A stretch of 64,000 nucleotides of DNA from Planctomycetota bacterium. GTDB taxonomy: Bacteria; Planctomycetota; Brocadiia; Brocadiales; Bathyanammoxibiaceae. Where the stretch lies: NCBI GenBank assembly GCA_016209685.1, contig JACQVQ010000012.1:111584-175583 (forward strand), written 5' to 3'. The notes below the pieces were generated by a model. The model had not been told where the DNA came from and did not search any database. It saw only the letters and a list, made by a program, of their open reading frames with translations. This document shows positions 11,546 through 59,047 of the stretch, in pieces (within the stretch, counting starts at the first letter, position 1; each line of letters starts with the position of its first letter). The position numbers were made by a program, and so were the translations under genes.

Positions 11546-12232
11546 ATGGCCAAAAAAGAAATCCTGGTCGTAGAGGACGAAAAAGACCTCACTGAGTTAA
11601 TAAAATACAACCTGGAGAAGGAGGGTTTCCAGGTCTTTTCTGCCTCTAACGGAGAAGAGGGGCTTAAGCTGGTGCAGAGGAAGCGGCCGGCCCTGGTACT
11701 CTTGGACCTCATGCTACCGGTGATAGACGGACTGGAGGTCTGTAGAAGGATAAAGAAAGACCCGCAGACTGCGGCCACCCCGGTGGTCATCCTTACAGTA
11801 AAAGATGCCGAGGCTGATATAGTCTCAGGACTGGAGGTCGGGGCTGATGACTATATAACCAAACCCTTTAGCCCCAGGGTACTCATTGCCAGGGTGAGGG
11901 CCATCCTGAGGAGGTACGAAGGGTCCGCCGAGACCAAGAGGGTAATTAAGCTGGAAGGCCTGACCATAGATCCCGTAAGGTACGAGGTCAAGGCAGATGG
12001 AGAGGACGTCCAGCTTACCAGGATGGAGTTTAACCTGCTGAAGTTCCTGGCGGAGAGGGCGGGGAGGGTACTTACCAGAAACCAGATTATGGACGGAGTC
12101 CTTGGGGAGGACGCCGTGATTATAGACAGGGCCATAGACGTTCACGTTGCCTCCCTGCGGAAGAAGCTGGGAGAATATGGCCCTCATATAGTTACTGTAA
12201 GGGGCGTAGGGTATAAATTCAAAGAACCGTGA
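11546..12232 (+). CDS. phoB: PhoB-type response regulator (OmpR family)
   Basis: A 228-residue two-domain regulator. The receiver domain has the acidic pair in VVEDEKD, phosphoacceptor Asp in LVLLDLMLP (about 54) and the conserved Lys in ITKPFSP (about 105). The C-terminal winged-helix domain (residues about 130-226) ends with the usual VRGVGYKF. A histidine kinase of PhoR type follows, and porin and pst genes with Pho boxes lie downstream. Established PhoB biology is activation of phosphate-starvation genes by binding 11-bp-periodic direct repeats, and such repeats are visible at 13867, 24247 and 24704. No Pho box is seen in front of phoB itself. Confidence 0.92.
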   Translation: MAKKEILVVEDEKDLTELIKYNLEKEGFQVFSASNGEEGLKLVQRKRPALVLLDLMLPVIDGLEVCRRIKKDPQTAATPVVILTVKDAEADIVSGLEVGADDYITKPFSPRVLIARVRAILRRYEGSAETKRVIKLEGLTIDPVRYEVKADGEDVQLTRMEFNLLKFLAERAGRVLTRNQIMDGVLGEDAVIIDRAIDVHVASLRKKLGEYGPHIVTVRGVGYKFKEP

Positions 12233-12249
12233 TAGAAATTCACTGCCTG

Positions 12250-12369
12250 TCATTCTGAGGGAGTGAAATCCGCCTGAGGCGGAAAGAATCTCTAATCCGA
12301 AATGTCACCCTGAGCGGAGCGAAGGGTCTAGATTCTTCCCCTTCACTTCGTTCAGGGTCAGAATGACAC
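12250..12369. repeat. Nested inverted repeats between phoB and phoR
   Basis: GTCATTCTGAGG...TCAGAATGACAC family dyad containing a CCGCCTGAGGCGG palindrome (12270-12282) and a GTCACCCTGAGCGG segment like that at 7403. Confidence 0.75.
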
Positions 12370-12376
12370 CCAGAAC

Positions 12377-13801
12377 ATGAAAAGTCTCCGATGGAAAACC
12401 TTTCTGAGTTATGTAGCCCTAGTGGGCATATACGTCCTTGTGGTGGGACTCTTCATTAATACCCCATTGAGGGAGGTTCTTGGGCCTGGTCTCAGTTTTA
12501 CACTGGGGAGTCTCCTGGCTACGGCCATTGCCCTGCCTGTGGGTTGGTTCATAAGCAGACGTCTCTTGAAACCCCTCAAGGAGATAACCCATGCCTCAGA
12601 AGGGTTCTCCAGGGGGGACTTTTCTGGAAGGATAAAGGTATATTCCCAAGACGAACTGGGACAACTCTCCCTGGGCCTCAACCAGATGGCCCAGGGGATG
12701 GAACAAACGACCGCCGCTACCACCAAGGATAAAAACCAACTGGAGGCACTCCTTTCCAGTATGACCGAGGGGGTAGTGGCAGTGGACGGCCAGGAGAGGA
12801 TATTCAAGATTAACGACGCCGCCGTCCAGATGCTCCGCCTTCCCAGGGAAAAGGCCCTTAACAGGTATCTATGGGAGGTCTTGAGAAACCCCAGGCTCAT
12901 TAGTCTGATACGAGAAGTACTGAAGGAGGGCAGGCGTGGGGGGATGGAGTTGACCGATTTCTTGCCCGGTAGTACTACCGCCCTCAGCCTCCAGGTCTCC
13001 CCCATAAGAGAGCCTGGCCAGACACTCGGCCCCCTTCAGACAGACACTGCCCAGGTCTCTGGGGCCGCAATAGTCCTCCACGACATCACAGACCTCAAGA
13101 AACTGGAGAAGATGCGGGTGGAGTTTGTGGCAAACGTCTCCCACGAACTCAAGACCCCCCTGGCCTCCATCAAGGGCTTTGTGGAGACCCTTAAAGACGG
13201 GGCACTGGAGGAGACTGATAACGCCAGGCGGTTCCTGGGTATCATAGAAAAACATGCCAATCGCCTGGATAACCTTATAAACGACCTCCTCAACCTATCC
13301 AAGATAGAGTCCAGAGAGACCCCACTGGAACTAAAGAAGATAGAACTAATGCCCTTGATGAAGAAGATAACCGCCAACCTGGAAGACCGCATAAGGGAGA
13401 AGAACCATCTCTTAGACCTGCGGGTGGAACCAGAGGGACTGGAGCTTGTGGCCGACGAACCCCTATTGGACCAGGCCGTAACTAACCTGCTTGACAACGC
13501 CATAAAGTACACCCCTGCCGGCGGCAAACTATCCATCTCCGCAAGAGAAGGCAATGGCCGGATAGAACTGGCCGTAACGGATACGGGCATAGGTATCCCC
13601 GAGTATGACCTGCCGCGCATCTTTGAGAGGTTTTATCGTGTGGACAAGGCACGCAGTAGGGAGATGGGAGGCACTGGCCTGGGCCTGGCAATAGTCAAGC
13701 ACATCATGCTGGTCCACGGTGGAGAGGCAAGGGTGGAAAGCCGGGCTGGCTTTGGAAGCACCTTTACCCTCTCTTTCCCATCCAGGGAAGTCAGTAGGTA
13801 G
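12377..13801 (+). CDS. phoR: PhoR-type sensor histidine kinase
   Basis: A 474-residue inner-membrane kinase. Two closely spaced membrane segments (about 10-28 and 38-58) leave almost no periplasmic domain, as in PhoR. HAMP (about 60-110) and PAS (about 115-225) domains follow, then the phosphoacceptor helix NVSHELKTPLASIKG (His at about 252) and an HATPase domain with DNAIKYTP, DTGIGIP and GTGLGLAIVKH boxes. It lies behind phoB and in front of a Pho-box porin, so it most likely reports phosphate supply through the Pst/PhoU complex encoded at 24.8-29.3 kb. A repeat cluster separates it from phoB, so it may also have its own promoter. Confidence 0.9.
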   Translation: MKSLRWKTFLSYVALVGIYVLVVGLFINTPLREVLGPGLSFTLGSLLATAIALPVGWFISRRLLKPLKEITHASEGFSRGDFSGRIKVYSQDELGQLSLGLNQMAQGMEQTTAATTKDKNQLEALLSSMTEGVVAVDGQERIFKINDAAVQMLRLPREKALNRYLWEVLRNPRLISLIREVLKEGRRGGMELTDFLPGSTTALSLQVSPIREPGQTLGPLQTDTAQVSGAAIVLHDITDLKKLEKMRVEFVANVSHELKTPLASIKGFVETLKDGALEETDNARRFLGIIEKHANRLDNLINDLLNLSKIESRETPLELKKIELMPLMKKITANLEDRIREKNHLLDLRVEPEGLELVADEPLLDQAVTNLLDNAIKYTPAGGKLSISAREGNGRIELAVTDTGIGIPEYDLPRIFERFYRVDKARSREMGGTGLGLAIVKHIMLVHGGEARVESRAGFGSTFTLSFPSREVSR

Positions 13802-13960: not shown

Positions 13961-15322
13961 ATGAGGTTATTAGTAATTACTGTGTTGAGTATCTCTTTCG
14001 TTAGTTCTATGTCGGGAGCCGTCTTTGGGCAAGACATGGAGTCCATGTTCAAGGAGTTACAGACCCTCAAGGACAGGCTGGACGCCCAGGATGAAGAGAT
14101 TAAGTACCTGAGGCTAAAGGTGGCCAAGGAAGAACTTGAAAAAGTTTCTGCACCAGCGACAGGAGGAGATGTAGTAAAGAATTACGATAAAACCCCTGAA
14201 GCCAAGGCAGAGACAGGCGTAACGGGGAATAAGCCCCTCTCCACTGCCACGGCACAAATAGGAACTACTGCAAGCCGTGGATTCTTTGGAGACCTTAAGA
14301 CTACATTAACTGGCCTGGGAGAGTGGAGTGAGAAACCGGACCCGTTAATTAAGGTAGGACAGGGATGGCTCAAAATAGGTGGGCTCTTCCAAGAGTGGTT
14401 TGTCCACGACGAATTAGCTACGGCTAGAGATGAGTTCAGGACAAGACGTATGGAGATAAAGCTCTACGGGGAGATAATTCCTAAGCTCAAGTATCAGGTG
14501 ATGTTTGACCCTGCCAAACGCTTCCCACGTACCGCCAGCGATGGTAGCACCCTCAGGGACAATACTGATACCGCCGGCACACTGCAGGACGCCTTTGTTA
14601 CCTTTACCCACATTCCTCACCATGAACTCACCCTCGGCCAGTTCAAGATACCTGTGATAGAGGAGGGCTTTCGGTCTTCTGCAAAACTGGACTTTGTTGA
14701 ACGTTCCAGGATTGCCCGAACCTTCAGTGACAGAAGGGACATAGGGATCATGCTTAAAGGTGACTACAAGCTCCTGGAGTACTATCTAGCCCTGGTAAAT
14801 GGAGAGGAGACCAATTCCAAAGATTTGAATGACCGAAAGGATTATATGGCAAGGCTCGTCCTGAAACCCTTCAGGGGCTGGGGGGATAGTCCGCTAAAAG
14901 GATTTGAGTTCGGAGGTTCTTATTATAATGGCAGGAGGGGTGTCCACAGGACGGTGAAAGACTTCTGGGGTGCAGAGGCGAGATACCAGTGGGAGAAATT
15001 GGCTCTTAAGGCAGAGTATGTGGCGGCAAGAGACGACGACTCCACACTAAAGACACTTAGCCCAATACACAGGGACGGATGGTATGCCCAGGCAGGATAC
15101 AGATTATTCAAGCCCCTGGAAGGCATGGTGAGGTACGAAGAATTCCGCAATAATAAGGACCAACACGGCAACGAAAACAGGGACTGGACCTTCGGCCTCA
15201 ACTGGTTTCTTAATGAAAATTATGCAAAATTCCAGCTGAACTACGTCCTTAAAAGTGTAGATGGGGCAAGAGACAAGAAGCCCGACGACCAGGTAATCGC
15301 CGCCATGCAAATACACTTTTAG
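13961..15322 (+). CDS. OprP/OprO-type outer-membrane porin, Pho-box controlled
   Basis: A 453-residue protein with a signal peptide (about 1-23, ending AVFGQD). A short coiled-coil segment follows (about 27-60), then a linker and a C-terminal beta-barrel with alternating residues that ends in an aromatic (QIHF). Coiled coil plus barrel is the arrangement of phosphate-selective trimeric porins (OprP/OprO family). The Pho box 60-90 bp upstream and the neighbouring phoBR support uptake of phosphate or polyphosphate, although anion selectivity cannot be read from sequence alone. AAAGGAG precedes the ATG. A paralogue with different regulation lies immediately downstream. Confidence 0.82.
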   Translation: MRLLVITVLSISFVSSMSGAVFGQDMESMFKELQTLKDRLDAQDEEIKYLRLKVAKEELEKVSAPATGGDVVKNYDKTPEAKAETGVTGNKPLSTATAQIGTTASRGFFGDLKTTLTGLGEWSEKPDPLIKVGQGWLKIGGLFQEWFVHDELATARDEFRTRRMEIKLYGEIIPKLKYQVMFDPAKRFPRTASDGSTLRDNTDTAGTLQDAFVTFTHIPHHELTLGQFKIPVIEEGFRSSAKLDFVERSRIARTFSDRRDIGIMLKGDYKLLEYYLALVNGEETNSKDLNDRKDYMARLVLKPFRGWGDSPLKGFEFGGSYYNGRRGVHRTVKDFWGAEARYQWEKLALKAEYVAARDDDSTLKTLSPIHRDGWYAQAGYRLFKPLEGMVRYEEFRNNKDQHGNENRDWTFGLNWFLNENYAKFQLNYVLKSVDGARDKKPDDQVIAAMQIHF

Positions 15323-15342
15323 CCTTTCCTGCTCTTTATTCC

Positions 15343-15370
15343 TTGACATTTATTTCTTTGCTGATATATC
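15343..15370 (+). promoter_or_regulatory. Sigma-70-type promoter for the riboswitch leader
   Basis: TTGACA at 15343-15348, a 16-bp spacer, and an extended -10 (TGA then TATATC, 15365-15370). The start site near 15377 lies just before the aptamer. Confidence 0.6.
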
Positions 15371-15390
15371 TTTAGGAAAGAATATAGCGA

Positions 15391-15489
15391 ATCTCCGAGT
15401 CGATTGTCCTAAGACCTAGTGTTATGGGCAGTCGACCGATAGGGTACAGGTGGAAACGCCTGCGCCTCCTGTCTTGGAAAGGAGAGGAA
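15391..15489 (+). ncRNA. Moco/Tuco-type riboswitch aptamer (candidate)
   Basis: The 3' portion, GCCTCCTGTCTTGGAAAGGAG-like (15464-15484), closely matches the same part of the E. coli moaA Moco RNA as I recall it (GCCTCC...TGGAAAGG). The adjoining ACCGATAGGG also corresponds to ACCAGGG there. CTCC (15393-15396) pairs with GGAG (15481-15484) to close the aptamer. Inside are an 8-bp stem (15399-15406 with 15429-15436) and a GAAA-capped hairpin CAGGTG/CGCCTG (15447-15462). GGAGAG (15481-15486) can instead pair with CTCTCC (15510-15515), disrupting the terminator. The family call rests on recall and manual alignment. Confidence 0.68.
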
Positions 15490-15498
15490 GAAATACAA

Positions 15499-15540
15499 GG
15501 GTTGACTGTCTCTCCAAACAAGAGGCGTCAGCCCTTTTTT
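15499..15540 (+). terminator. Leader terminator (riboswitch expression platform)
   Basis: GGGTTGAC (15499-15506) pairs with GTCAGCCC (15527-15534), followed directly by six T's. It lies before the porin start codon, so it can only act as a conditional attenuator. The alternative pairing of CTCTCC with GGAGAG of the aptamer stem predicts that ligand binding switches the gene off. Confidence 0.85.
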
Positions 15541-15593
15541 ATTTGGTTTCCAAAGGTCTAGCCAACAATTCACGTCAAGTAACGGAGGAGAGC

Positions 15594-16931
15594 ATGAAAC
15601 AGCTTATCGGTAGTAGTGTGCTTTTTGTGTCGCTGTTCTCAAGTCCAATTCTTGCGGCTCAGGATACGGAGATACTATACCTAACCGAACATCTCCAAGC
15701 CCTGGAGAAAACTGTTATGAGCCAGAAGGGAGAGATTGAGTCCCAGAGGAGAGAGATTGAGGCGCTAAAGGCCCGCCCGGAATACGTGGTCTCAAAGGAA
15801 GAACTTCGTGGTGTAACAGAGGCGCAGGTTAAAGATTATCTGGGTACGGATGAGTTCGTACATGAAGCTGCCAAGGTATACCCTTCAAAAGCGAATATAG
15901 AATATAAAGTTGGCAAGGGGTTTACCTTTGAGACCCTGGATAAGAAATTTCTGCTTGAGATACTGGGCAGGCTACAGACTCGTTACGATTTCAGGGACAA
16001 AGAGGATGCTAGAGATACCAGTTCCTTCAGGATAAACCGTTTAAGGTGGAGATTTCGTGGGCATGCCTTTAGCCCCAATCTCCACTATCTCACAGAGTTT
16101 GACTTGAGTAGCCTTTCGGGTGGAGGGCAACTAAAGGACGCTTACGTAGATTATCACTTCTTCCCTGAACTACACCTGCGGGGTGGCCAATGGAAGGTAC
16201 CCTACAACCGGCAGAACCTTGCTTCGGATTATGCGAAACAATTTATAGATGAATCAATTACTAACGATGCCTTTAGCCTGGGCAGGGACATAGGTCTAAT
16301 GGTGTACGGCGCCCCCTTTGACGAACATCTTGAGTATTATGCAGGGATATTCACAGGCAGAGGGATAAACGCTACAGAAAACACCAATAACCAAAACATG
16401 CTAATTGCGAGGGTCGGTTACAGACCCTTTGGCAGGTTCAATGACTACTGGGAATCGGATGCAGAATATACTAAGCAATTCAAGGCCGCTTTTGGTACTT
16501 CCTTTGCCACTAACAATGGCACACAGATCTTTTTTAACAACAGCCTCCAAACCTTCCCCAAAGATGCCCAATTTAGGCAGTATGGTATAGATAGTATAAT
16601 GAAATACCGCGGATTCTCTCTGCAGGGTGAATTTCACTTGCGCAGTCTGGACAGAAGGGGCTTTAGCCAAAGTACTGCCAATGGCTTCTTTGTCCAGGGC
16701 GGTTACTTTCCCATACCAAAACGGCTTGAGCTAGCCGCCCGCTATGCCCAGGTAGACCCAAACGTAAACGTAAGCAATGACTTACAAAGGGAATTTGCAT
16801 TTGGCACAAACTGGTACTTTAGCAAACATCATCACAAGATACAGGCTAATATCTCACGCTTTGTTACAGACAGACCTACTGGTGATAAGGAAGACACGGT
16901 TCTATCTATCATGCATCAATTAGAGTGGTAG
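15594..16931 (+). CDS. Outer-membrane porin under riboswitch control
   Basis: A 445-residue paralogue of the preceding porin. The start at 15594 is chosen because GGAGGAG (15584-15590) precedes it and a signal peptide follows (MKQLIGSS to ILAAQ, 1-19). A frame extending further upstream would run through the terminator. A coiled-coil stretch (about 22-55, EKTVMSQKGEIESQRREIE) leads into a barrel with the phosphate-porin-like segment VDYHFFPELHLRGGQWKVPY, ending in an aromatic (HQLEW). It belongs to the OprP/OprO superfamily. If the upstream RNA senses molybdenum or tungsten cofactor, the natural cargo would be molybdate or tungstate; that is inference. Confidence 0.82.
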   Translation: MKQLIGSSVLFVSLFSSPILAAQDTEILYLTEHLQALEKTVMSQKGEIESQRREIEALKARPEYVVSKEELRGVTEAQVKDYLGTDEFVHEAAKVYPSKANIEYKVGKGFTFETLDKKFLLEILGRLQTRYDFRDKEDARDTSSFRINRLRWRFRGHAFSPNLHYLTEFDLSSLSGGGQLKDAYVDYHFFPELHLRGGQWKVPYNRQNLASDYAKQFIDESITNDAFSLGRDIGLMVYGAPFDEHLEYYAGIFTGRGINATENTNNQNMLIARVGYRPFGRFNDYWESDAEYTKQFKAAFGTSFATNNGTQIFFNNSLQTFPKDAQFRQYGIDSIMKYRGFSLQGEFHLRSLDRRGFSQSTANGFFVQGGYFPIPKRLELAARYAQVDPNVNVSNDLQREFAFGTNWYFSKHHHKIQANISRFVTDRPTGDKEDTVLSIMHQLEW

Positions 16932-16974
16932 TTCAAGCAGCTTAACTCTCTAGTGAAAGTTTGGGTCTTATGGT

Positions 16975-16998
16975 GTAAGGGGGAGACTTCCCCCTTAC
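16975..16998. terminator. Bidirectional terminator-like palindrome
   Basis: GTAAGGGGGA and TCCCCCTTAC arms with a 4-nt loop, placed between the convergent porin and ABC ATPase genes. There is no long T-run, so it may equally be a repeat element. Confidence 0.55.
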
Positions 16999-17028
16999 AG
17001 AGTGTTACCCATCTTTACAGCAAATACA

Positions 17029-17751
17029 TTATACCCCTATAAATTCAGCAACAAACTCACTGGCAGGATGCCTGCATATACCTTCAGGGGTAGCTATCTG
17101 CTCAATCTTTCCCCCATTCATCACAGCCACCCTTTGGGCCAGGAGGAAGGCCTCCCGATGGTCATGCGTGACGTAGAGTGTAGTTATACTTAACTCCTGG
17201 TGGAGACGGGTTATTTCTTTGTACATGGCCCTCTTTATAGTAACGTCCAGATTGGACAAGGGTTCGTCCATCAGCAAAATCCTTGGCTGAGAGGCCGTTG
17301 CCCGAGCAAGGGCCACTAACTGCTGTTGCCCGCCAGAAAGGGTGTGGGGATAACGGTGGCGATACCCTTCCAGTCTAAACTTGTTGAGTACCTCTTCTAC
17401 CCGCTTCCTCCTGGCTGGCCTGATAAGCTTCTTTGTAATAGGGAATTCTACGTGCCCCTGCACCGTGATGTGCGGCCATAGAGCCAGGTCCTGGAACACC
17501 ATACCAACAGGGCGGGCAGACGGAGGTATCAAGCTTCTACCACCAGCACTGACAAGTCTTCCATCCAACCAAATCTCCCCCTTCCAGGGGGTCTCAAGGC
17601 CCGCTATCATCCTGAGGGTAGTAGTCTTTCCACAACCAGAAGGACCCAAAAGGGCCAATACCTCCCCCTCTTCCACCTGGAAGGTAACGTCACTAACTAC
17701 CAGCTTGCCCTGAAAGCGTTTAGAGACCCCCTTAAGTGTCAGTACTGCCAT
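17029..17751 (-). CDS. ABC transporter ATPase, ferric/spermidine/sulfate importer type
   Basis: A 240-residue ATPase that would energise the adjacent permease. It shows Walker A GPSGCGKTTT (34-43), Q-loop VFQDLAL, signature LSGGQQQLVALARA, Walker B ILLMDEPLSNLD and the switch His in VTHDH. It is far shorter than FbpC/PotA/CysA proteins (about 350) because the C-terminal regulatory TOBE domain is absent. It overlaps the 3' end of the permease gene by 13 bp and is the last gene of a seven-gene operon. The partner binding protein suggests ferric iron, but substrate assignment in this ATPase class is unreliable. Confidence 0.88.
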   Translation of the reverse strand: MAVLTLKGVSKRFQGKLVVSDVTFQVEEGEVLALLGPSGCGKTTTLRMIAGLETPWKGEIWLDGRLVSAGGRSLIPPSARPVGMVFQDLALWPHITVQGHVEFPITKKLIRPARRKRVEEVLNKFRLEGYRHRYPHTLSGGQQQLVALARATASQPRILLMDEPLSNLDVTIKRAMYKEITRLHQELSITTLYVTHDHREAFLLAQRVAVMNGGKIEQIATPEGICRHPASEFVAEFIGV

Positions 17752-19349
17752 CTTCCCACCCGACTAGAGAGGACAAGGAGGACAATTAGAGGTAGTAGGA
17801 CAACAACCAGGAGTATTATAGCGGTGGCGGATACCACCTCTGCAGGACTGTTGGCCATCACTGTGAAAAGGGTTATCGGCAAGGTTTCATTGCCCGGTGG
17901 ACACACAAGTATAGTAGTCCCAAGCTCCCCGGCGCAAAAGATAAAAGACAGTACCCAGGTCATCACTACTCTAGGTATTAGAAGAGGCAAGAAGATTCTA
18001 ACCATAAGCCTCCACCACCCGGCCCCAGAGACCTCTGCCGCCTCAGAGATACTGCGCGGCACCTGCCTGTAAGCATCACCCATGAAACGGACGGCAAGGG
18101 GAGAGAACCTCACCACATAGCCAATGAGGATTATGGCAAAGGTACCATAAATCCATTGGGAAAGCCCCCCTGGCCTATTCCATAATTTTATAAGCCCCAC
18201 GCCAATAACCGTAGCAGGCACGGCAAAGAGGAGTAGCATAGAAAAACCTAACTCCCGGGTAGGAGGCAGTCTGTACTTTTCTAAAAAATAGCCCAGGATT
18301 AGTCCCAATAGAGTGAGGAGGCTCGCCCCTATCACACCAAAAACAAGGGTATTAACCATCCCGGTCCCTGCCAGGGAAAAGGCCCTTACGTAGGCCCCTA
18401 GAGACCAGGAATCCATTACCAGAGATACCAGTGGAAGGAATACAGAAAGGCACAGAATTACAACACAAGCCACAGTATAAGGTATCCTCCCCTTTCCTAA
18501 CAAATAATAGTACGTACGGCCTCCTGCCCCCCTGGCCAGGCCTTCTAACGGCCTCGCTCCAAGGAAAATCCTCTCCAGGGTCATAATCAATACAGTAAAG
18601 AGGACTAAAGGAAGGCAGAGGGCGGTGGCCGTCTTTTCATTATAAAAGACGCTGAATTCAGTGAATATCTTGGTAGTGAACACCTTTACCCCAAGTAGAA
18701 AGGGTACGCCAAACTCCGAAAAGGCCAGGACAAAGACCACAACCATGCCCGAAATTATCCCTCGTAGTGCCATGGGAAAGAGTACCTCTCTCATCACCCT
18801 CCCCCTGCCACCAAAAAGTAGCCCTGCCTCCTCTAAACTGGCATTCACCCCAATGAAACTGCCTTCTGCGACCACCATTACAATAGGGAAAAGGGCTAGC
18901 CCTAATACCATAGAGGCCCCAAAGGGACTGTATATAAAATTGGAAATCCCCTCTGCAGTAACAAAGGGTAGGTTAGAAAGCATATTATTAAGGAAACCGC
19001 TCTTCCCTAGCAAGTTGGCCCAGGCCAGTCCATAAATATAAGAAGGGATAATAAATGGTAAGAGGAGGAGGGGTCTCAAGGCCCACTTTAGTGGAATATC
19101 GGTCTTCCCCAGTAGAAAGCCCAAAAATATCCCTATCAGGGTGGCCAACAAGGTGCTGAGAGAGGCCAGGAGAAGACTATTTAAGAAGAAGGAGGCATTT
19201 CTCCGGGTGAAGACGTCCCTATAATTCTCAACGGAGGGACTCCCCCCCACGTTGAAAGAACCCCAAAGCATCCATAGTACTGGGAAAAATACAAAGAAAA
19301 ATACTAAGAATAGTATGAACACAAAAAGTATTTTTCTTCCAACAAACAA
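17739..19349 (-). CDS. ABC transporter permease, FbpB-type two-domain
   Basis: A 536-residue inner-membrane permease with about 12 predicted membrane segments in two homologous halves, the usual fused form of ferric iron (FbpB/SfuB) permeases. EAA-like loops are seen in the first half (ASLEEAGLLFGGRGRVMREV) and the second (SISEAAEVSGAGWWRLMVRI). The frame opens with TTG at 19349, 12 bp after the binding-protein gene, with AGAAGG upstream. It overlaps the ATPase gene, so translation is coupled. Confidence 0.9.
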   Translation of the reverse strand: MFVGRKILFVFILFLVFFFVFFPVLWMLWGSFNVGGSPSVENYRDVFTRRNASFFLNSLLLASLSTLLATLIGIFLGFLLGKTDIPLKWALRPLLLLPFIIPSYIYGLAWANLLGKSGFLNNMLSNLPFVTAEGISNFIYSPFGASMVLGLALFPIVMVVAEGSFIGVNASLEEAGLLFGGRGRVMREVLFPMALRGIISGMVVVFVLAFSEFGVPFLLGVKVFTTKIFTEFSVFYNEKTATALCLPLVLFTVLIMTLERIFLGARPLEGLARGAGGRTYYYLLGKGRIPYTVACVVILCLSVFLPLVSLVMDSWSLGAYVRAFSLAGTGMVNTLVFGVIGASLLTLLGLILGYFLEKYRLPPTRELGFSMLLLFAVPATVIGVGLIKLWNRPGGLSQWIYGTFAIILIGYVVRFSPLAVRFMGDAYRQVPRSISEAAEVSGAGWWRLMVRIFLPLLIPRVVMTWVLSFIFCAGELGTTILVCPPGNETLPITLFTVMANSPAEVVSATAIILLVVVLLPLIVLLVLSSRVGRWQY

Positions 19350-19361
19350 ACTGTTAGCCTT

Positions 19362-20366
19362 CTAAAACCCGGTCCATTCTTTAAGATAGGGGTATATTTC
19401 TTCCAACTTCTTGGCCACTTCTCTATAGTCCACGAGCATGGGCCTTAAACGGTCTAAACCAGGTACTCTCGTTACCTCTGTCCAAGGTCTCAAGGGCATC
19501 TGTGCACACTCAGCCCTGGCCAGTCTAGTCTCCACCTCCTCACTGAGAAGGAAATCAACTAACTGCCTGGCCTCCTCTGGATTAGGCCCACCTTTGATAA
19601 TGCAAACCATGTTAGGCATTACCAGTGTACCTATGCCCCCCTGGTCAGGATAGACGATACCCACTGGTCTCCCCTCAAGTAATGCCATCCTGGCATCGTC
19701 TGTATCCATTAATCCAACAGCCGCCTCACCCCTTGAGACAAGCCTCTTCACCTCCCCATTTGAAGAAACTACCCTCACACCATTGGCCTTGAGGCCCTTA
19801 AGGAATTCCCTGGCCCTTTCCTCCCCCAGGACGCAAAAAAGGCTTGCAACGTGAATAGAGGTGGTACCAAAGAGGGGATTGGCCATGGCCACCTGACCCT
19901 TCCACCTGGGATTGAGTAGGTCAAAGATAGATTGTGTAACCTCTCCTTCTTTAATCAAATTCTTATTATAAAGTAGAACCCTGGTCCTTGCTGAAAAGCC
20001 TGTCCAACCGCCCCCTTCGTCCTTGTAAATCTCAGGTATATCTATGGCGTGGGGAGATTTATACGGTTCCAGCATACCCCTCTTTTCTAGTAGTAAGGGC
20101 CTTACAGGGTCACCACTCCAGAAGACGTCCGCCCTGGGGTTATCTTTCTCTGCAATAAGGCGATTTACTATACCCGTACTCTTGGCCTCCTCAGTGTCAT
20201 AAATGGCCCTTACTTTTATCCCACCCCTCTTTTCAAATTCCTTCAATACAGGTTCAGAAAAGAGTCTGTCCTCCGAGGTATAGACTACCACTTCCTGCCC
20301 CTCTGCCTTTGTCCATCCCAGGAAAGACAGCAGAAGGATCACCTCAAGGAGGTACTTTCCCATCAC
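19362..20366 (-). CDS. Periplasmic binding protein, FbpA/AfuA-like (extracellular solute-binding family 1)
   Basis: A 334-residue secreted binding protein with a signal peptide (about 1-23, ending AEGQE). The mature start VVVYTSEDRLFSEPVLKEFE is typical of ferric-ion-binding FbpA/IdiA-type proteins, and FWSGDPVRPLLLEKRG follows the same family pattern. The gene begins GTGATG, overlapping the TGA of the preceding gene, so either GTG (20366) or ATG (20363) may start. With the FbpB-type permease and ATPase it forms a complete importer, most likely for Fe(III); related clades take phosphonate, thiamin or sugar phosphates. It is downstream of a multiheme cytochrome in the same operon. Confidence 0.85.
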   Translation of the reverse strand: MMGKYLLEVILLLSFLGWTKAEGQEVVVYTSEDRLFSEPVLKEFEKRGGIKVRAIYDTEEAKSTGIVNRLIAEKDNPRADVFWSGDPVRPLLLEKRGMLEPYKSPHAIDIPEIYKDEGGGWTGFSARTRVLLYNKNLIKEGEVTQSIFDLLNPRWKGQVAMANPLFGTTSIHVASLFCVLGEERAREFLKGLKANGVRVVSSNGEVKRLVSRGEAAVGLMDTDDARMALLEGRPVGIVYPDQGGIGTLVMPNMVCIIKGGPNPEEARQLVDFLLSEEVETRLARAECAQMPLRPWTEVTRVPGLDRLRPMLVDYREVAKKLEEIYPYLKEWTGF

Positions 20367-21010
20367 TCTAAAGACTCCACAATTATGTCATCAAAATAGG
20401 TAACGGAATCGGCCTTGGTCCACAGCCCCACATTTCCTGTCTTGTAAGCGTCATCCTTTACGTCTATAAGCAACTTATCATCGTAATAACCCCTGATACT
20501 GTTACCCTTATATTCCACCTTTAAAGTATGCCATTCCCTGGAGGATACCTTAACATCTGCCCAAGCTATCTTCTTCCTCTTACCATTATTAAATTTGTAG
20601 AGGTCAACGTTGTCCTCAAGGGCGTTAGCACGCAACACATAATAATTATCCTGGTCTCGGAACCTGAATATAACCCCAGCGGCCCTGTCCCTCCTGCCCG
20701 AAACAGCCTTAAAAGATACCTTTACCGCTCCGTCAGCAAGGTGACTGCCCTCGTAGATGAGGACAGGAAAATGATATTCCAGGTCCTCATCCGAGGTCTG
20801 GGCTAATACCTTTTTAGGGCTTGGAGCCGTCTCATCAATCATGACTACCCAATCGCCCTCCGTCCCCTTTCCGCTCTTTGAACTCTTAAAACCTTCTGGA
20901 ATTCTACCCTCTTTATATCCCTCAAAACTTATGGACACTAATACCTTTTCCCCACCAAAAAGGACTGTAGACAAACTCAGGACAAGAAGTATAGGCGTCA
21001 GTCTTTTCAT
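20363..21010 (-). CDS. Secreted LamG/DUF1080-like protein
   Basis: A 215-residue protein. The ATG at 21010 is chosen over one 33 bp upstream because GGAGGAGG precedes it, it overlaps the previous stop (TGATG), and it starts a clean signal peptide (to about residue 19). The body has the jelly-roll pattern of DUF1080/concanavalin-A-like domains (RAAGVIFRFRDQDNYYVLRA, WHTLKVEYKGNSIRGYYDD, VTYFDDIIVESLE). Such domains bind carbohydrate or other ligands, and enzymatic activity cannot be claimed. It lies between an outer-membrane protein and the ferric binding protein. Confidence 0.75.
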   Translation of the reverse strand: MKRLTPILLVLSLSTVLFGGEKVLVSISFEGYKEGRIPEGFKSSKSGKGTEGDWVVMIDETAPSPKKVLAQTSDEDLEYHFPVLIYEGSHLADGAVKVSFKAVSGRRDRAAGVIFRFRDQDNYYVLRANALEDNVDLYKFNNGKRKKIAWADVKVSSREWHTLKVEYKGNSIRGYYDDKLLIDVKDDAYKTGNVGLWTKADSVTYFDDIIVESLE

Positions 21011-21864
21011 CACGGAAACCTCCTCCCCCTCTTTATCTCCCAATCCCTTCTCCTTATAATCTTTGTAGAAATCGTGACCCCGGCCGTACCGCCCCAGTCA
21101 ACGCTCTCTGCACTCAGTCCACCAAAGCCTGCCGCATCAAAGTCCATACCCCATGGGCCATGCCAAACGACTCCCCCGAGGAGTTGATGCTGGACAGCCT
21201 CTTTCTCTACCTTTTCTCCTGAGTACTCCCCTACCATGTGGAAACGCTCCCTGCCAGGCACAGGTACGTCTAATATCGTACCAAATAGATACTGTGCCCT
21301 TGTCTCCCTTAATTCATCCTTAGTCGTGTGATGGGTGGCTCCCCCTATAGTCATGTGCCAGGTGAAACTGGGCAAGAACCACGACATGATTACAAGACCC
21401 TCAAAATCAGCACCCCTGGCCCTCTCTGCCCCCCTTTCGGTAGGATAGAGGAGACCTAACTCCGTAGCCACGCTGGGCACCCAGTTCTCACCCCTATACC
21501 AGACACTCTTTATAAAACCAGCCGTTGCCGTGAATTGGTCTATGTCTGAATCAAAGAGGCCTCTATCCTTCTTATCTATAAATTCATGTACCGACTCCAG
21601 TACCAATTCCCAATCACCAAGACCTATATTAGGAAAGCCCAGGTTAAAACGGAGGCTAGGGGACTGGATTCTTACATCATCTGGGCCAGGCTGTTTCTTT
21701 ACGGTAAGGCCGAAGAGCCCCCATTCCAATTCCATCTCGTATGGCTCCGCCACGTCTGCATCCGTGGTAACGAAGGGGCGCAGGGCCAGGGCCGATGGTA
21801 CTTTTAATGCCGAAATCCCTATAACCAGGAGCAGTAATGAAATTAATCTTAATGAAAGGAACAC
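21010..21864 (-). CDS. Outer-membrane beta-barrel-like protein of unknown function
   Basis: A 284-residue protein with a signal peptide (about 1-27, ending ALALRP). Many short alternating strands follow with aromatic girdle residues, resembling 'phenol degradation MetA-type' or transporter barrels of Gram-negative bacteria. The GTG start at 21864 overlaps the TAA of the cytochrome gene and has AGGAGA upstream. Its place between a multiheme cytochrome and a binding protein fits an outer-membrane conduit, but the sequence does not show what passes through it. Confidence 0.6.
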   Translation of the reverse strand: MFLSLRLISLLLLVIGISALKVPSALALRPFVTTDADVAEPYEMELEWGLFGLTVKKQPGPDDVRIQSPSLRFNLGFPNIGLGDWELVLESVHEFIDKKDRGLFDSDIDQFTATAGFIKSVWYRGENWVPSVATELGLLYPTERGAERARGADFEGLVIMSWFLPSFTWHMTIGGATHHTTKDELRETRAQYLFGTILDVPVPGRERFHMVGEYSGEKVEKEAVQHQLLGGVVWHGPWGMDFDAAGFGGLSAESVDWGGTAGVTISTKIIRRRDWEIKRGRRFP

Positions 21865-23214
21865 TTAATCTCCTGTCTCTTTCACAGGACGTTCCTTAAG
21901 TTCCTGTAGGGCCTTTAGCCACCTCCACCTCTGGCTCCCACTCCAATCAGCCAGGGCCCTGAGGGCCCACTCCAGGGTCTTATCCTGATGACATCTGTTG
22001 CAGGCATTGGGGTGGTCGTAAAGGACTGTACGTTCAGGACTCACAAATTCAAAATCAAAACAGTGACAGCGAGATTCCAGTGCAACGGCGTTCTTGCCTA
22101 TCCTGGGCATATGGCATTCTATGCAAAGGCTTCCAGGGCTATCAGGCTTGTGATGGGTATGCCCGCTAATACTATCCTCAAATGGGCCTGCTGGGGAGTT
22201 GCTCCTGTGGCAGGTAAGGCAGAGGCTGTTGCCCGGCTTATATACCATTGAGGTGTACCTGCCACTGTGTGGGTTATGGCAGTCAAAACACCTTACGCCT
22301 CGGCTATACATCCTGCTCTGTACGAAATCATTTCCCTGGTTCCTGTTCTTCCTTGAGACACCATCTTTAAAGAACTCGTGGGATTCATGTCCTTCTCTCC
22401 CTGAAGAAGGGGCAGGACTTCTATATCTGGACAGGTCATCCCCGGGCAGGTAGCCTACCGGATAATCCCTGTCAGGGAAATTACTGCCCTCCGGGGGTCT
22501 ACCTGACAGATGACACTGGAGGCAAACGTCAACCGCACGGTCAAACGGCAGTCTGGAAGGGTTTACTATATTAGCCCGTATCTTTGCGGGGTCCTGCTCC
22601 CCGGCAAGCACCTCCTCTATGTGCCTTGCCCCAGGCCCGTGACAGGCCTCGCAGGCTATGTTCCATTCAATAATGGTTGTCCCCGTGCCTATCAAGCCAG
22701 TGCTGTGACATCCATCACAGAGTTTTGAGGTGGGCCTCTTCTGCCAATTCTCCGGGTACTGGGACACCCACCATTCATCCTTTGGAAAATATTTTACCCA
22801 CTCCTTTGTCGCCACATTCCACTGCATGGGAAGGATGTAATAATCGTCGCCTATCTTCTTCATGAATCGTTGCTTGAATCGGTTTCCCAATAAAAGGTCT
22901 GCGTCTTTCAAGGTGAAGGAGAAGGGATTAGTACTGAAGTCTGCCACCAGTGCCCCTGGCTCAGCAGGATTCCGTATCATCTTGCTGTGGCGGGTAGTCG
23001 CCCAGCCAGCGTAGTTTTCTGGATGGCAAGTGGAACATACCTTTGAGCCTACGTAGATAATCCCTACCCGACCCTCTAAAGGGGTAGTCAAACCCCCGGC
23101 CAGCTTTACCTCGCTCCGGGACCCAGAGGTCCCGTCCCCAGCCCAAAAGAGTACGCAGAGGCAAAGGCTGACCAGGGGCATCTTTCCTAATATCCGCATG
23201 GAAATAGTTTTCAT
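21865..23214 (-). CDS. Octaheme c-type cytochrome, secreted
   Basis: A 449-residue periplasmic cytochrome. A signal peptide (about 1-30) is followed by eight CxxCH haem-binding motifs: CSTCH, CDGCH, CEACH, CLQCH, CFDCH, CLTCH, CIECH and CNRCH. Spacing and the WATTRHSKM segment after the first motif resemble cytochrome c554/multihaem families; no eighth-haem CxxCK or hydroxylamine-oxidoreductase tyrosine motif is seen. A perfect AGGAGGTCAT ribosome-binding site precedes ATG 23214. It lies 1 bp from the ChrB-like gene and abuts the barrel gene, so one transcript probably links electron transfer, an outer-membrane protein and iron import. Confidence 0.88.
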   Translation of the reverse strand: MKTISMRILGKMPLVSLCLCVLFWAGDGTSGSRSEVKLAGGLTTPLEGRVGIIYVGSKVCSTCHPENYAGWATTRHSKMIRNPAEPGALVADFSTNPFSFTLKDADLLLGNRFKQRFMKKIGDDYYILPMQWNVATKEWVKYFPKDEWWVSQYPENWQKRPTSKLCDGCHSTGLIGTGTTIIEWNIACEACHGPGARHIEEVLAGEQDPAKIRANIVNPSRLPFDRAVDVCLQCHLSGRPPEGSNFPDRDYPVGYLPGDDLSRYRSPAPSSGREGHESHEFFKDGVSRKNRNQGNDFVQSRMYSRGVRCFDCHNPHSGRYTSMVYKPGNSLCLTCHRSNSPAGPFEDSISGHTHHKPDSPGSLCIECHMPRIGKNAVALESRCHCFDFEFVSPERTVLYDHPNACNRCHQDKTLEWALRALADWSGSQRWRWLKALQELKERPVKETGD

Positions 23215-23215
23215 T

Positions 23216-24193
23216 TTATGACCTCCTCTTCAAGGCTAGATAAAGGGATTCAAAGAGGGTGAGACCCGCCTGTAATAGTTCCTGGTCATCAGCGTAAAGG
23301 GCCATCAAGCCCCTTAAGACGACCTCAAGGCCCTGGGCCTCCGCTCTACCGTATTTGTTGTCCCTGAGGTCTACGTCGTGTACTATCTCTGCCAGTTGCC
23401 AGGTAGCCCTATCTCGCACTCCGAAGGCCTTTAGTAGGGTTTCAAAGGTGCAGTCTTCGCCTCGGTGGCTTAGCTCCGCCCCCGTCATGTCAAAAGGTAC
23501 AGCACCCCTTACGGCCTCTCCCACGGAGTCAAATACAAATCTTGCCTCAGGGTCTATAAACCTCTTTATTAGCCATGCTGAAGCGAGTCTATCAACATGA
23601 GGTCTTTTTCGGGTCACCCACTGCCTTTTTAAAAAGTCTCGTTTGTTTAACTGAAAAAGTTTTTCTGTACGCCTGGGAACTCCTTTCAATCTCTTTTTAC
23701 AACCTTCCAGTAGTCTTTTGGCCTCGGCCTGAAGCGGGGCACCAAAGAAATCTATGTTCTCTACTGTCCAAAGGTCTTGTTCCACCCGATGCAACTCTCT
23801 TTTGATTTCCTCATACTTATGGGATTCGGTAGGGGCTGTTTTATCAATCTTTTTTAGTAAGACCCTGGCTTGATTAATTATGCGGTCGTAATCCTGATTC
23901 CTTGTCTGATTAAAAAGTTCAATAATCTCCTGGGTTTTTACGCCCTCTATGGTGTCTGTTTTTAGAAGCAGGGCCTCTCCCTTTATTTTTTGTATCTCTT
24001 GCTGGAGCCATTGGAAACTCTCGTAGAGTTCATCCCTGGCGGGCAAGATGTAAACGGTGTTCTTCAGGGCTACAGAACCCAGGTCCCTGAGTTTTCTCCA
24101 GAGCCTGATTCTCTCCCTGGAGGCCCTAACGGGAAGACTGTACATGAATAAAAACCATTTCATCTTGTAATAAGTATACATTTTGTAATACAT
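23216..24193 (-). CDS. ChrB-like chromate-resistance family protein
   Basis: A 325-residue protein with both halves of ChrB. The N-terminal part (MKWFLFMYSLPVRASRERIR, SVALKNTVYILP) and the C-terminal domain (RKRPHVDRLASAWLIKRFID, FDMTGAELSHRGEDCTFETL, EIVHDVDLRDNKYG) are both clear. Known ChrB is a chromate-responsive regulator or accessory of the ChrA efflux pump. No chrA is present here, and the gene instead heads an operon with a cytochrome and an iron importer. Several starts are possible (24193, 24181, 24163); ATG 24163 begins at the usual family N-terminus. It may act as a metal-responsive regulator, which is inference. Confidence 0.8.
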   Translation of the reverse strand: MYYKMYTYYKMKWFLFMYSLPVRASRERIRLWRKLRDLGSVALKNTVYILPARDELYESFQWLQQEIQKIKGEALLLKTDTIEGVKTQEIIELFNQTRNQDYDRIINQARVLLKKIDKTAPTESHKYEEIKRELHRVEQDLWTVENIDFFGAPLQAEAKRLLEGCKKRLKGVPRRTEKLFQLNKRDFLKRQWVTRKRPHVDRLASAWLIKRFIDPEARFVFDSVGEAVRGAVPFDMTGAELSHRGEDCTFETLLKAFGVRDRATWQLAEIVHDVDLRDNKYGRAEAQGLEVVLRGLMALYADDQELLQAGLTLFESLYLALKRRS

Positions 24194-58951: not shown

Positions 58952-59047
58952 GGGAATGGATGGGGCCCGGTGGCCCTGACGGTCTTCAAAACCGCTTAGA
59001 CCCCCAAAAAGGGGTTTGGTGGGTTCGACTCCCACACGTTCCCGCCA
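58952..59047 (+). tRNA. selC: Selenocysteine tRNA (anticodon TCA)
   Basis: A 96-nt tRNA with acceptor GGGAATG / CGTTCCC, discriminator G and encoded CCA (59045-59047). It has a long D stem (GGGCC/GGCCC), an anticodon stem-loop with TCA at 58986-58988 in loop CTTCAAA, a long variable arm (CCCC/GGGG) and T arm GTGGGTTCGACTCCCAC. The extended size and UCA anticodon identify tRNA-Sec. The organism therefore decodes UGA as selenocysteine; selA, selB and selD are not in this window. Confidence 0.96.

Follow-up and report, generated by a model that had tools for sequence, protein, structure and literature searches.

A P3-lacking Moco RNA, a candidate OFF switch, precedes an outer-membrane porin gene in an uncultured relative of anammox bacteria

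Molybdate and tungstate are usually held to cross the outer membrane passively via general porins. A stretch of DNA from an uncultured relative of anammox bacteria raises the question of whether this entry can instead be placed under the control of a cofactor riboswitch, as it carries an RNA of the Moco family directly 5' of an outer-membrane channel gene. The whole stretch analysed, 64,000 nucleotides in length, is referred to here as the window, and its features are collected in Table 1. On balance, it is probable that this P3-lacking RNA is an attenuation OFF switch acting on an anion channel of the phosphate-porin type, which would be opened when the cofactor is short. The aptamer class is already known; the kind of target is new.

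Table 1. Features of the Moco RNA locus and its neighbourhood (window coordinates)
Feature	Position	Strand	Basis
Response regulator and histidine kinase, PhoBR-like	11546-13801	+	Response_reg and Trans_reg_C for 11546-12232; kinase by eye
Porin 1 of the tandem, PF07396, 453 aa, directly after the PhoR-like kinase	13961-15322	+	Pfam, 79.8 bits
Promoter-like site: TTGACA 15343-15348; TATATC 15365-15370 (16-nt spacer) or TATCTT 15367-15372 (18-nt spacer)	15343-15372	+	Sequence, just 5' of the aptamer
Moco/Tuco riboswitch aptamer, P3-lacking form (RF01055)	15381-15500	+	cmscan, 73.4 bits, E 8.1e-16
Aptamer P1, 5' strand (UCUCC)	15392-15396	+	Rfam consensus structure
Switching strand GGAGAGG: P1 3' strand (15481-15485) or antiterminator 5' strand (15481-15487)	15481-15487	+	Rfam structure, folding
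Intrinsic terminator, 14-bp stem with one bulge, then U6	15499-15540	+	Sequence; pairing probability 0.99 in the full leader
Antiterminator 3' strand (UCUCUCC), overlapping the terminator 5' arm 15499-15513	15509-15515	+	Pairs with 15481-15487
Ribosome-binding site GGAGGAG	15584-15590	+	By eye
Porin 2, outer-membrane porin, PF07396 Porin_O_P, 445 aa, gene under control	15594-16931	+	Pfam, 68.8 bits, cut-off 20.9
Three-gene ABC transporter, convergent with porin 2	17029-20366	-	NCBIfam best models

Judged by its sequence, the leader is almost certainly a Moco RNA riboswitch. A preliminary description of this DNA had proposed as much from the shared blocks GCCTCC and TGGAAAGG, both of which are present in the leader, and the covariance search that it called for assigns the leader to RF01055 at 73.4 bits, against an Rfam gathering score of 36 bits. 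The cmscan alignment covers the full model (positions 1-135 of 135), and gaps stand in place of the P3 stem. This is the sole RF01055 match in its own 2.02-Mb genome (94.6% complete) and the top score among that genome and those of the relatives searched. The fold of 15381-15545 reaches -70.1 kcal/mol, versus -43.5 in shuffles (z -6.4).

The aptamer family and the leader position are those of the E. coli moaA leader as presented in the main text of Regulski 2008 (PMC2408646), although the window RNA, in contrast to the moaA leader, lacks P3 and is directed at an outer-membrane porin. In the same text, a P3 stem marks the Moco subtype, and the P3-less form is tied to the tungsten cofactor (Tuco). 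The P3-less shape of the window RNA fits Tuco by this published correlation, but gene content lends no support to tungsten use: aldehyde:ferredoxin oxidoreductase (AOR) was found in none of 12 genomes, that of the window included, nor was a TupB permease found in the window genome. The ligand of the window aptamer would be either Moco or Tuco.

The proposed competition between 15481-15486 and 15510-15515 is exact (GGAGAG with CTCTCC), and a G-U pair adds 15487 and 15509. One strand is therefore common to P1 and the antiterminator, and the antiterminator overlaps the terminator, as in an attenuator. The terminator is real but not perfect, as it had been called, since its arms (15499-15506/15527-15534 and 15508-15513/15521-15526) form a stem of 14 pairs, two of them G-U and with a single U bulged out, ahead of U6 at 15535-15540; the terminator scan missed this bulged form. 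When transcripts of increasing length are folded by partition function, the antiterminator has a mean pairing probability of 0.80-0.88 for 3' ends at 15518-15524. From 15530 it gives way to the terminator, for which mean pairing is 0.96-0.99 from 15532 on, and ligand-free P1 is poorly formed (0.43 at 3' end 15487, at most 0.07 later). At equilibrium the terminator always wins, which was counted against an OFF switch and requires that control be kinetic. The succession of antiterminator and terminator, together with the weak ligand-free P1, agrees with an OFF switch under kinetic control, P1 being held by the ligand.

In such a switch, ample Mo or W cofactor would lead the aptamer to close P1 (15392-15396 with 15481-15485), leaving 15509-15515 free, so that the terminator (15499-15534) would form and transcription would end before the porin. 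When cofactor is scarce, 15481-15487 would pair with 15509-15515, the terminator would be delayed and the porin would be made, allowing more molybdate or tungstate to reach the periplasm. The direction of the switch is quite likely OFF. The opposite arrangement, in which cofactor favours read-through and the porin feeds substrate to molybdo- or tungstoenzymes when cofactor is present, has a parallel in the cofactor-using enzymes that stand behind some Moco RNAs; it is nevertheless very unlikely here, given that the P1 3' strand doubles as an antiterminator strand and closure of P1 should free the terminator. The promoter suggested for this transcript is well placed, but its consensus match is at chance level, with three sites in 15200-17100 versus 2.6 expected. 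At the other end of the leader, the porin start is the ATG at 15594, preceded by GGAGGAGAG.

The target was correctly described as an outer-membrane porin: residues 125-444 of porin 2 match PF07396 over the cut-off. The family includes the phosphate-selective porins OprP and OprO. Porin 2 is the second of a tandem whose members are 26% identical, and porin 1 is probably the phosphate-linked one; the Pho naming of the two-component pair at 11546-13801 rests on similar gene order in two relatives (G003 and G022). No solved relative of porin 2 was detected by phmmer with the single sequence against the PDB, where the seven matches returned, betaine aldehyde dehydrogenase among them, are attributed to chance (best E 0.046). 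A protein search of a genome contig collection with porin 2 likewise returned no match.

It may be that the riboswitch works but that the channel behind it has remained one for phosphate or for anions in general, or is one that imports substrates of Mo/W enzymes (nitrate, nitrite, formate), the RNA having been placed there by rearrangement of the tandem locus. Several observations lend themselves to this reading, which is unlikely but deserves some weight. Homologous porins adjoin Pst genes in G003, G007, G008 and G022, with PhoBR in G003 and G022 (names by eye), and porin 1 in the window comes after a PhoR-like kinase. The G022 porin, 62% identical to porin 2, follows PhoBR-PstSCAB-PhoU, a phosphate operon, so the substrate of porin 2 may itself be phosphate. 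Tandem porins also recombine, as is apparent from a hybrid gene in G006. Yet the aptamer, switching strands and terminator of the window are all intact, the phoR-linked place is already taken by porin 1, and P3-less Moco RNAs precede other outer-membrane genes elsewhere. No Pho-box-like site before porin 2 beats shuffles (best 6 mismatches versus 5.1), although this null says little, as the scan is empty before porin 1 too.

The nearest relatives of the porin bear on its substrate. In a tree of 31 porins, the sister of porin 2 is the G006 porin (100/98), the G022 porin comes next (100/100), and these three join the porins of G003, G004, G007, G008 and three genomes of family f5 (92/97). The G006 porin lies directly behind genes for a permease and an ATPase. 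The best NCBIfam models of the permease are Mo_ABC_porter at 191.5 bits (cut-off 210.3) and molybdate ModB at 163 (cut-off 182.6), and that of the ATPase is tungstate WtpC, at 281.1 bits, below the cut-off of 440. A sister porin behind ModB-/WtpC-like genes was counted in favour of a Mo/W porin. The G006 gene (L050 2113-3652) is, however, the hybrid mentioned above, with a 5' end like porin 1 (69.7% DNA identity over 274 positions) and a barrel like porin 2 (75.2% over 1082 positions), and it carries its own promoter-like site (by eye), which weakens the argument from neighbourhood. The hybrid is a sign of recombination between two tandem porins such as those at 13961-16931 in the window, an event that would delete the stretch where the window has its Moco RNA. 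No RF01055 match was obtained in G006 at E up to 10, and no Moco RNA precedes the homologous porins at the 15 loci searched, out of 30 porin loci returned.

Molybdate or tungstate is, on present evidence, probably the relevant substrate of porin 2. The dedicated outer-membrane route for these metals envisaged in the preliminary description gains indirectly from the sister porin beside ModB/WtpC-like genes and from the other outer-membrane genes under P3-less RNAs, whereas the 62%-identical porin in a phosphate operon speaks against reading it as settled. Taken together, the phosphate-operon homologues and the G006 context suggest that a porin once tied to phosphate may have been recruited to Mo/W in the branch that unites the window and G006.

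The pairing of RNA and porin is rare. RF01055 matches at E of 0.001 or less occur in 10 of 98 genomes (the window's own and its relatives), nine of them over the cut-off; in the window's own order, those over the cut-off are in the window genome and six genomes of family f3. Only the window genome among 62 of the order has the RNA together with the porin, a result counted against the preferred reading and obtained with stricter filters that lose weak matches. Neither of the other same-genus genomes (77% and 93% complete) has the porin or an RF01055 match over the cut-off. In the phylum as a whole (392 genomes), RF01055 is matched in 19, with 17 over the cut-off, and among the loci listed for the phylum a porin stands behind the RNA only in the window (by eye). 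One further candidate, in G035, was rejected, as it scores 28.1 bits, below the cut-off, and has the look of a repeat element by eye.

In the RNAs of family f3 (Scalindua-type), P3 is absent in all six, and the next gene encodes a transporter in five, the sixth contig ending; this gene is MFS_MOT1 by Pfam in the two genomes tested and near-identical by eye in the other three. P3-less Moco RNAs before MOT1 molybdate transporters in these relatives argue for the Mo/W reading. Competition between the P1 3' strand and a terminator arm, partly with other bases, recurs in five of the six leaders (L002, L003, L004, L007 and L008), with shuffle p values of 0.02-0.06 each, in close kin that are not independent; in L005, the script found no terminator. 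The duplex control read 87 leaders and found a terminator in 30, missing those of the window and L005, and p was below 0.05 in 11 of the 30, one of which (L189) is the same record as L002, and not in the other 19. In L002, L003 and L005, the Moco RNA and MOT1 stand behind a formate-dehydrogenase-like gene (by eye).

The window genome itself has 11 stretches with the PF00384 molybdopterin oxidoreductase domain, in eight frames, and therefore needs the cofactor. Two of the molybdopterin oxidoreductase frames hold one in-frame TGA each and are likely selenoproteins such as formate dehydrogenase. A tRNA-Sec (71.8 bits) is located at 58952-59043 (+) of the window.

How the metal would pass the inner membrane is less obvious. 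Neither MOT1 nor a strong ModB/WtpB-type permease was found in the window genome, in which the best Mo_ABC_porter stretch scores 68.9 bits; permeases in six of 11 relatives searched reach 176-192 bits. The 68.9-bit stretch comes from a two-domain permease at 17739-19349, part of the convergent ABC transporter, and the whole protein has Mo_ABC_porter as its best model at 122.6 bits (cut-off 210.3). The best models of the accompanying binding protein are phosphonate-type (119.7 bits, cut-off 310). G006 has a similar two-domain permease in addition to its ModB/WtpB-type permease. The transporter could be the missing Mo/W importer of the inner membrane. Convergent with porin 2, the region 17029-24193 (-) encodes this ABC transporter, a PF06439-domain protein, an unknown protein and a multiheme cytochrome. 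The last two also occur behind the homologous porin in G022, and in G006 they share a contig with a porin fragment at its end (both by eye).

The shortage of importers bears on a further alternative, in which the RNA arrived with a Mo/W transporter gene that has since been lost and now controls nothing useful. Such a relic would account for a single case in the order, with both same-genus genomes lacking it, and for a genome in which searches for MOT1, TupB and ModB/WtpB-type permeases gave no clear Mo/W importer. It is hard to square, however, with a full-length 73.4-bit match accompanied by intact switching strands, terminator, ribosome-binding site and porin frame, and is most improbable.

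An attenuating Moco RNA on a porin would have partial precedents. P3-lacking ('Tuco') RNAs that precede genes for MOT1, tungstate-type binding proteins and MoaA share the aptamer form of the window, but the products of these genes work in the cytoplasm, the inner membrane or the periplasm rather than in the outer membrane. In Caldithrix abyssi, according to PMC5317091, a MOT1 gene is preceded by a Moco RNA, and the same paper describes cofactor riboswitches before outer-membrane receptors, B12 before btuB and TPP before a TonB receptor. In those cases, too, a cofactor RNA precedes an outer-membrane uptake gene, although the ligands differ and the products are TonB-dependent receptors instead of a porin. 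The words 'porin' and 'outer membrane' have no occurrences in the main text of PMC2408646, and the literature searched, which lay outside supplements and most subscription papers, yielded no description of an outer-membrane gene behind a Moco RNA.

Among porins, the phosphate-selective ones of PF07396 belong to the same Pfam family as porin 2, and some homologues adjoin Pst genes, but porin 2 has a leader riboswitch and its sole phosphate link is its neighbour, porin 1. According to PMC545781, psp of Geobacter and Desulfuromonas encodes a porin weakly similar to PF07396 and has predicted Fur boxes; it resembles the window in placing a PF07396-type porin in a metal regulon, but the metal there is iron and the regulator a protein repressor rather than a cofactor RNA. 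Porin 2 also has a weak match to the ExtI model NF040900 (E 1e-8, 34.4 bits, cut-off 150). ExtI of Geobacter sulfurreducens is porin-like, and its loss lowers selenite and tellurite reduction according to the abstract of PMC5877670. It is thus an oxyanion-linked porin-like protein, for which, unlike porin 2 with its leader RNA, that abstract includes no riboswitch.

The window locus suggests that some bacteria control the entry of Mo/W trace metals at the outer membrane. If a cofactor RNA gates a porin, the assumption of passive entry becomes testable. A substrate other than phosphate would then be indicated for a PF07396 porin, and the Moco/Tuco regulon would reach the cell surface. An upstream Moco RNA would also serve as a sequence rule by which candidate outer-membrane transporters of Mo/W can be picked out in uncultured bacteria.

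Other outer-membrane genes are found behind P3-less Moco RNAs. A scan of the genome contig collection for the P3-less core gave at least 118 stretches, 80 of them listed as loci, and at least 83 matches. Among the matches listed, 76 of 83 contain CTCCGAG and GGAAAGGAG as required by a motif check. This check is too strict, as at least one of the seven dropped (L199) is over the Rfam cut-off. RF01055 is matched over the cut-off in 10 of the 11 loci given to cmscan, L165 being the exception. By record titles, the set of matches holds many Firmicutes and other monoderms, and most of its records are metagenome bins, in which contigs may be wrongly assigned.

Outer-membrane genes stand behind seven of the 76 RNAs, among the matches listed. 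A TonB receptor comes first in L173 and L206 and second in L144 and L181, the first gene of L180 encodes an OMP_b-brl_4 barrel, and in L207 a TonB receptor lies 2.9 kb downstream with other genes between. Two further P3-less RNAs in the same genomes precede TonB receptors, L247 (88.7 bits) and L257 (46.0 bits); in L257, the 3' strand of P1 extends into the ribosome-binding site (by eye), so control is more likely translational. The genomes with TonB receptors under P3-less RNAs are from Acidobacteria, Aminicenantes, Cloacimonetes, Zixibacteria and Desulfurellales. Pfam families of 60 first genes, among the matches listed, are headed by SBP_bac_11 (16), PBP_like_2 (13) and Oxidored_molyb (PF00174; 9), in a census that left out 15 RNAs without a first gene by rule and L153 (unread bases). 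Outer-membrane genes are therefore a minority among the matches listed.

The remaining case is from a member of the Desulfurellaceae. In L139 (RNA 569-690, -), the first gene is a porin-like fragment with no Pfam match that runs off the contig. Contig C50 of the same genome (L263) overlaps the L139 contig by exactly 54 nt and carries the C-terminal part of the barrel, which is 24% identical (E 4e-15) to a protein that itself matches Porin_4 only weakly (17.1 bits, cut-off 27). Across the overlap, the order is Moco RNA, porin-like barrel, and BtuF-, BtuC- and BtuD-like genes. MolABC is a molybdate importer of the BtuFCD ABC type, and the Desulfurellaceae transporter is a candidate for such a system; the best models of its genes are B12, heme and iron carriers.

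The TonB receptors behind P3-less RNAs possibly import a Mo/W chelate or the cofactor itself. Whether dedicated outer-membrane routes, comprising oxyanion porins (the window and the porin-like gene of the Desulfurellaceae) and TonB receptors, are a general and so far unnamed part of the Moco/Tuco regulon could go either way. If they are, cofactor status would set the permeability of the outer membrane to Mo/W, or the uptake of metal chelates or the pterin cofactor. In some of these loci, a secreted protein is encoded beside the TonB receptor, with no Pfam or NCBIfam match in L144, L173 and L181 and no NCBIfam match in L266, and in L181 an ABC_cobalt-like permease lies near the TonB receptor and the P3-less RNA.
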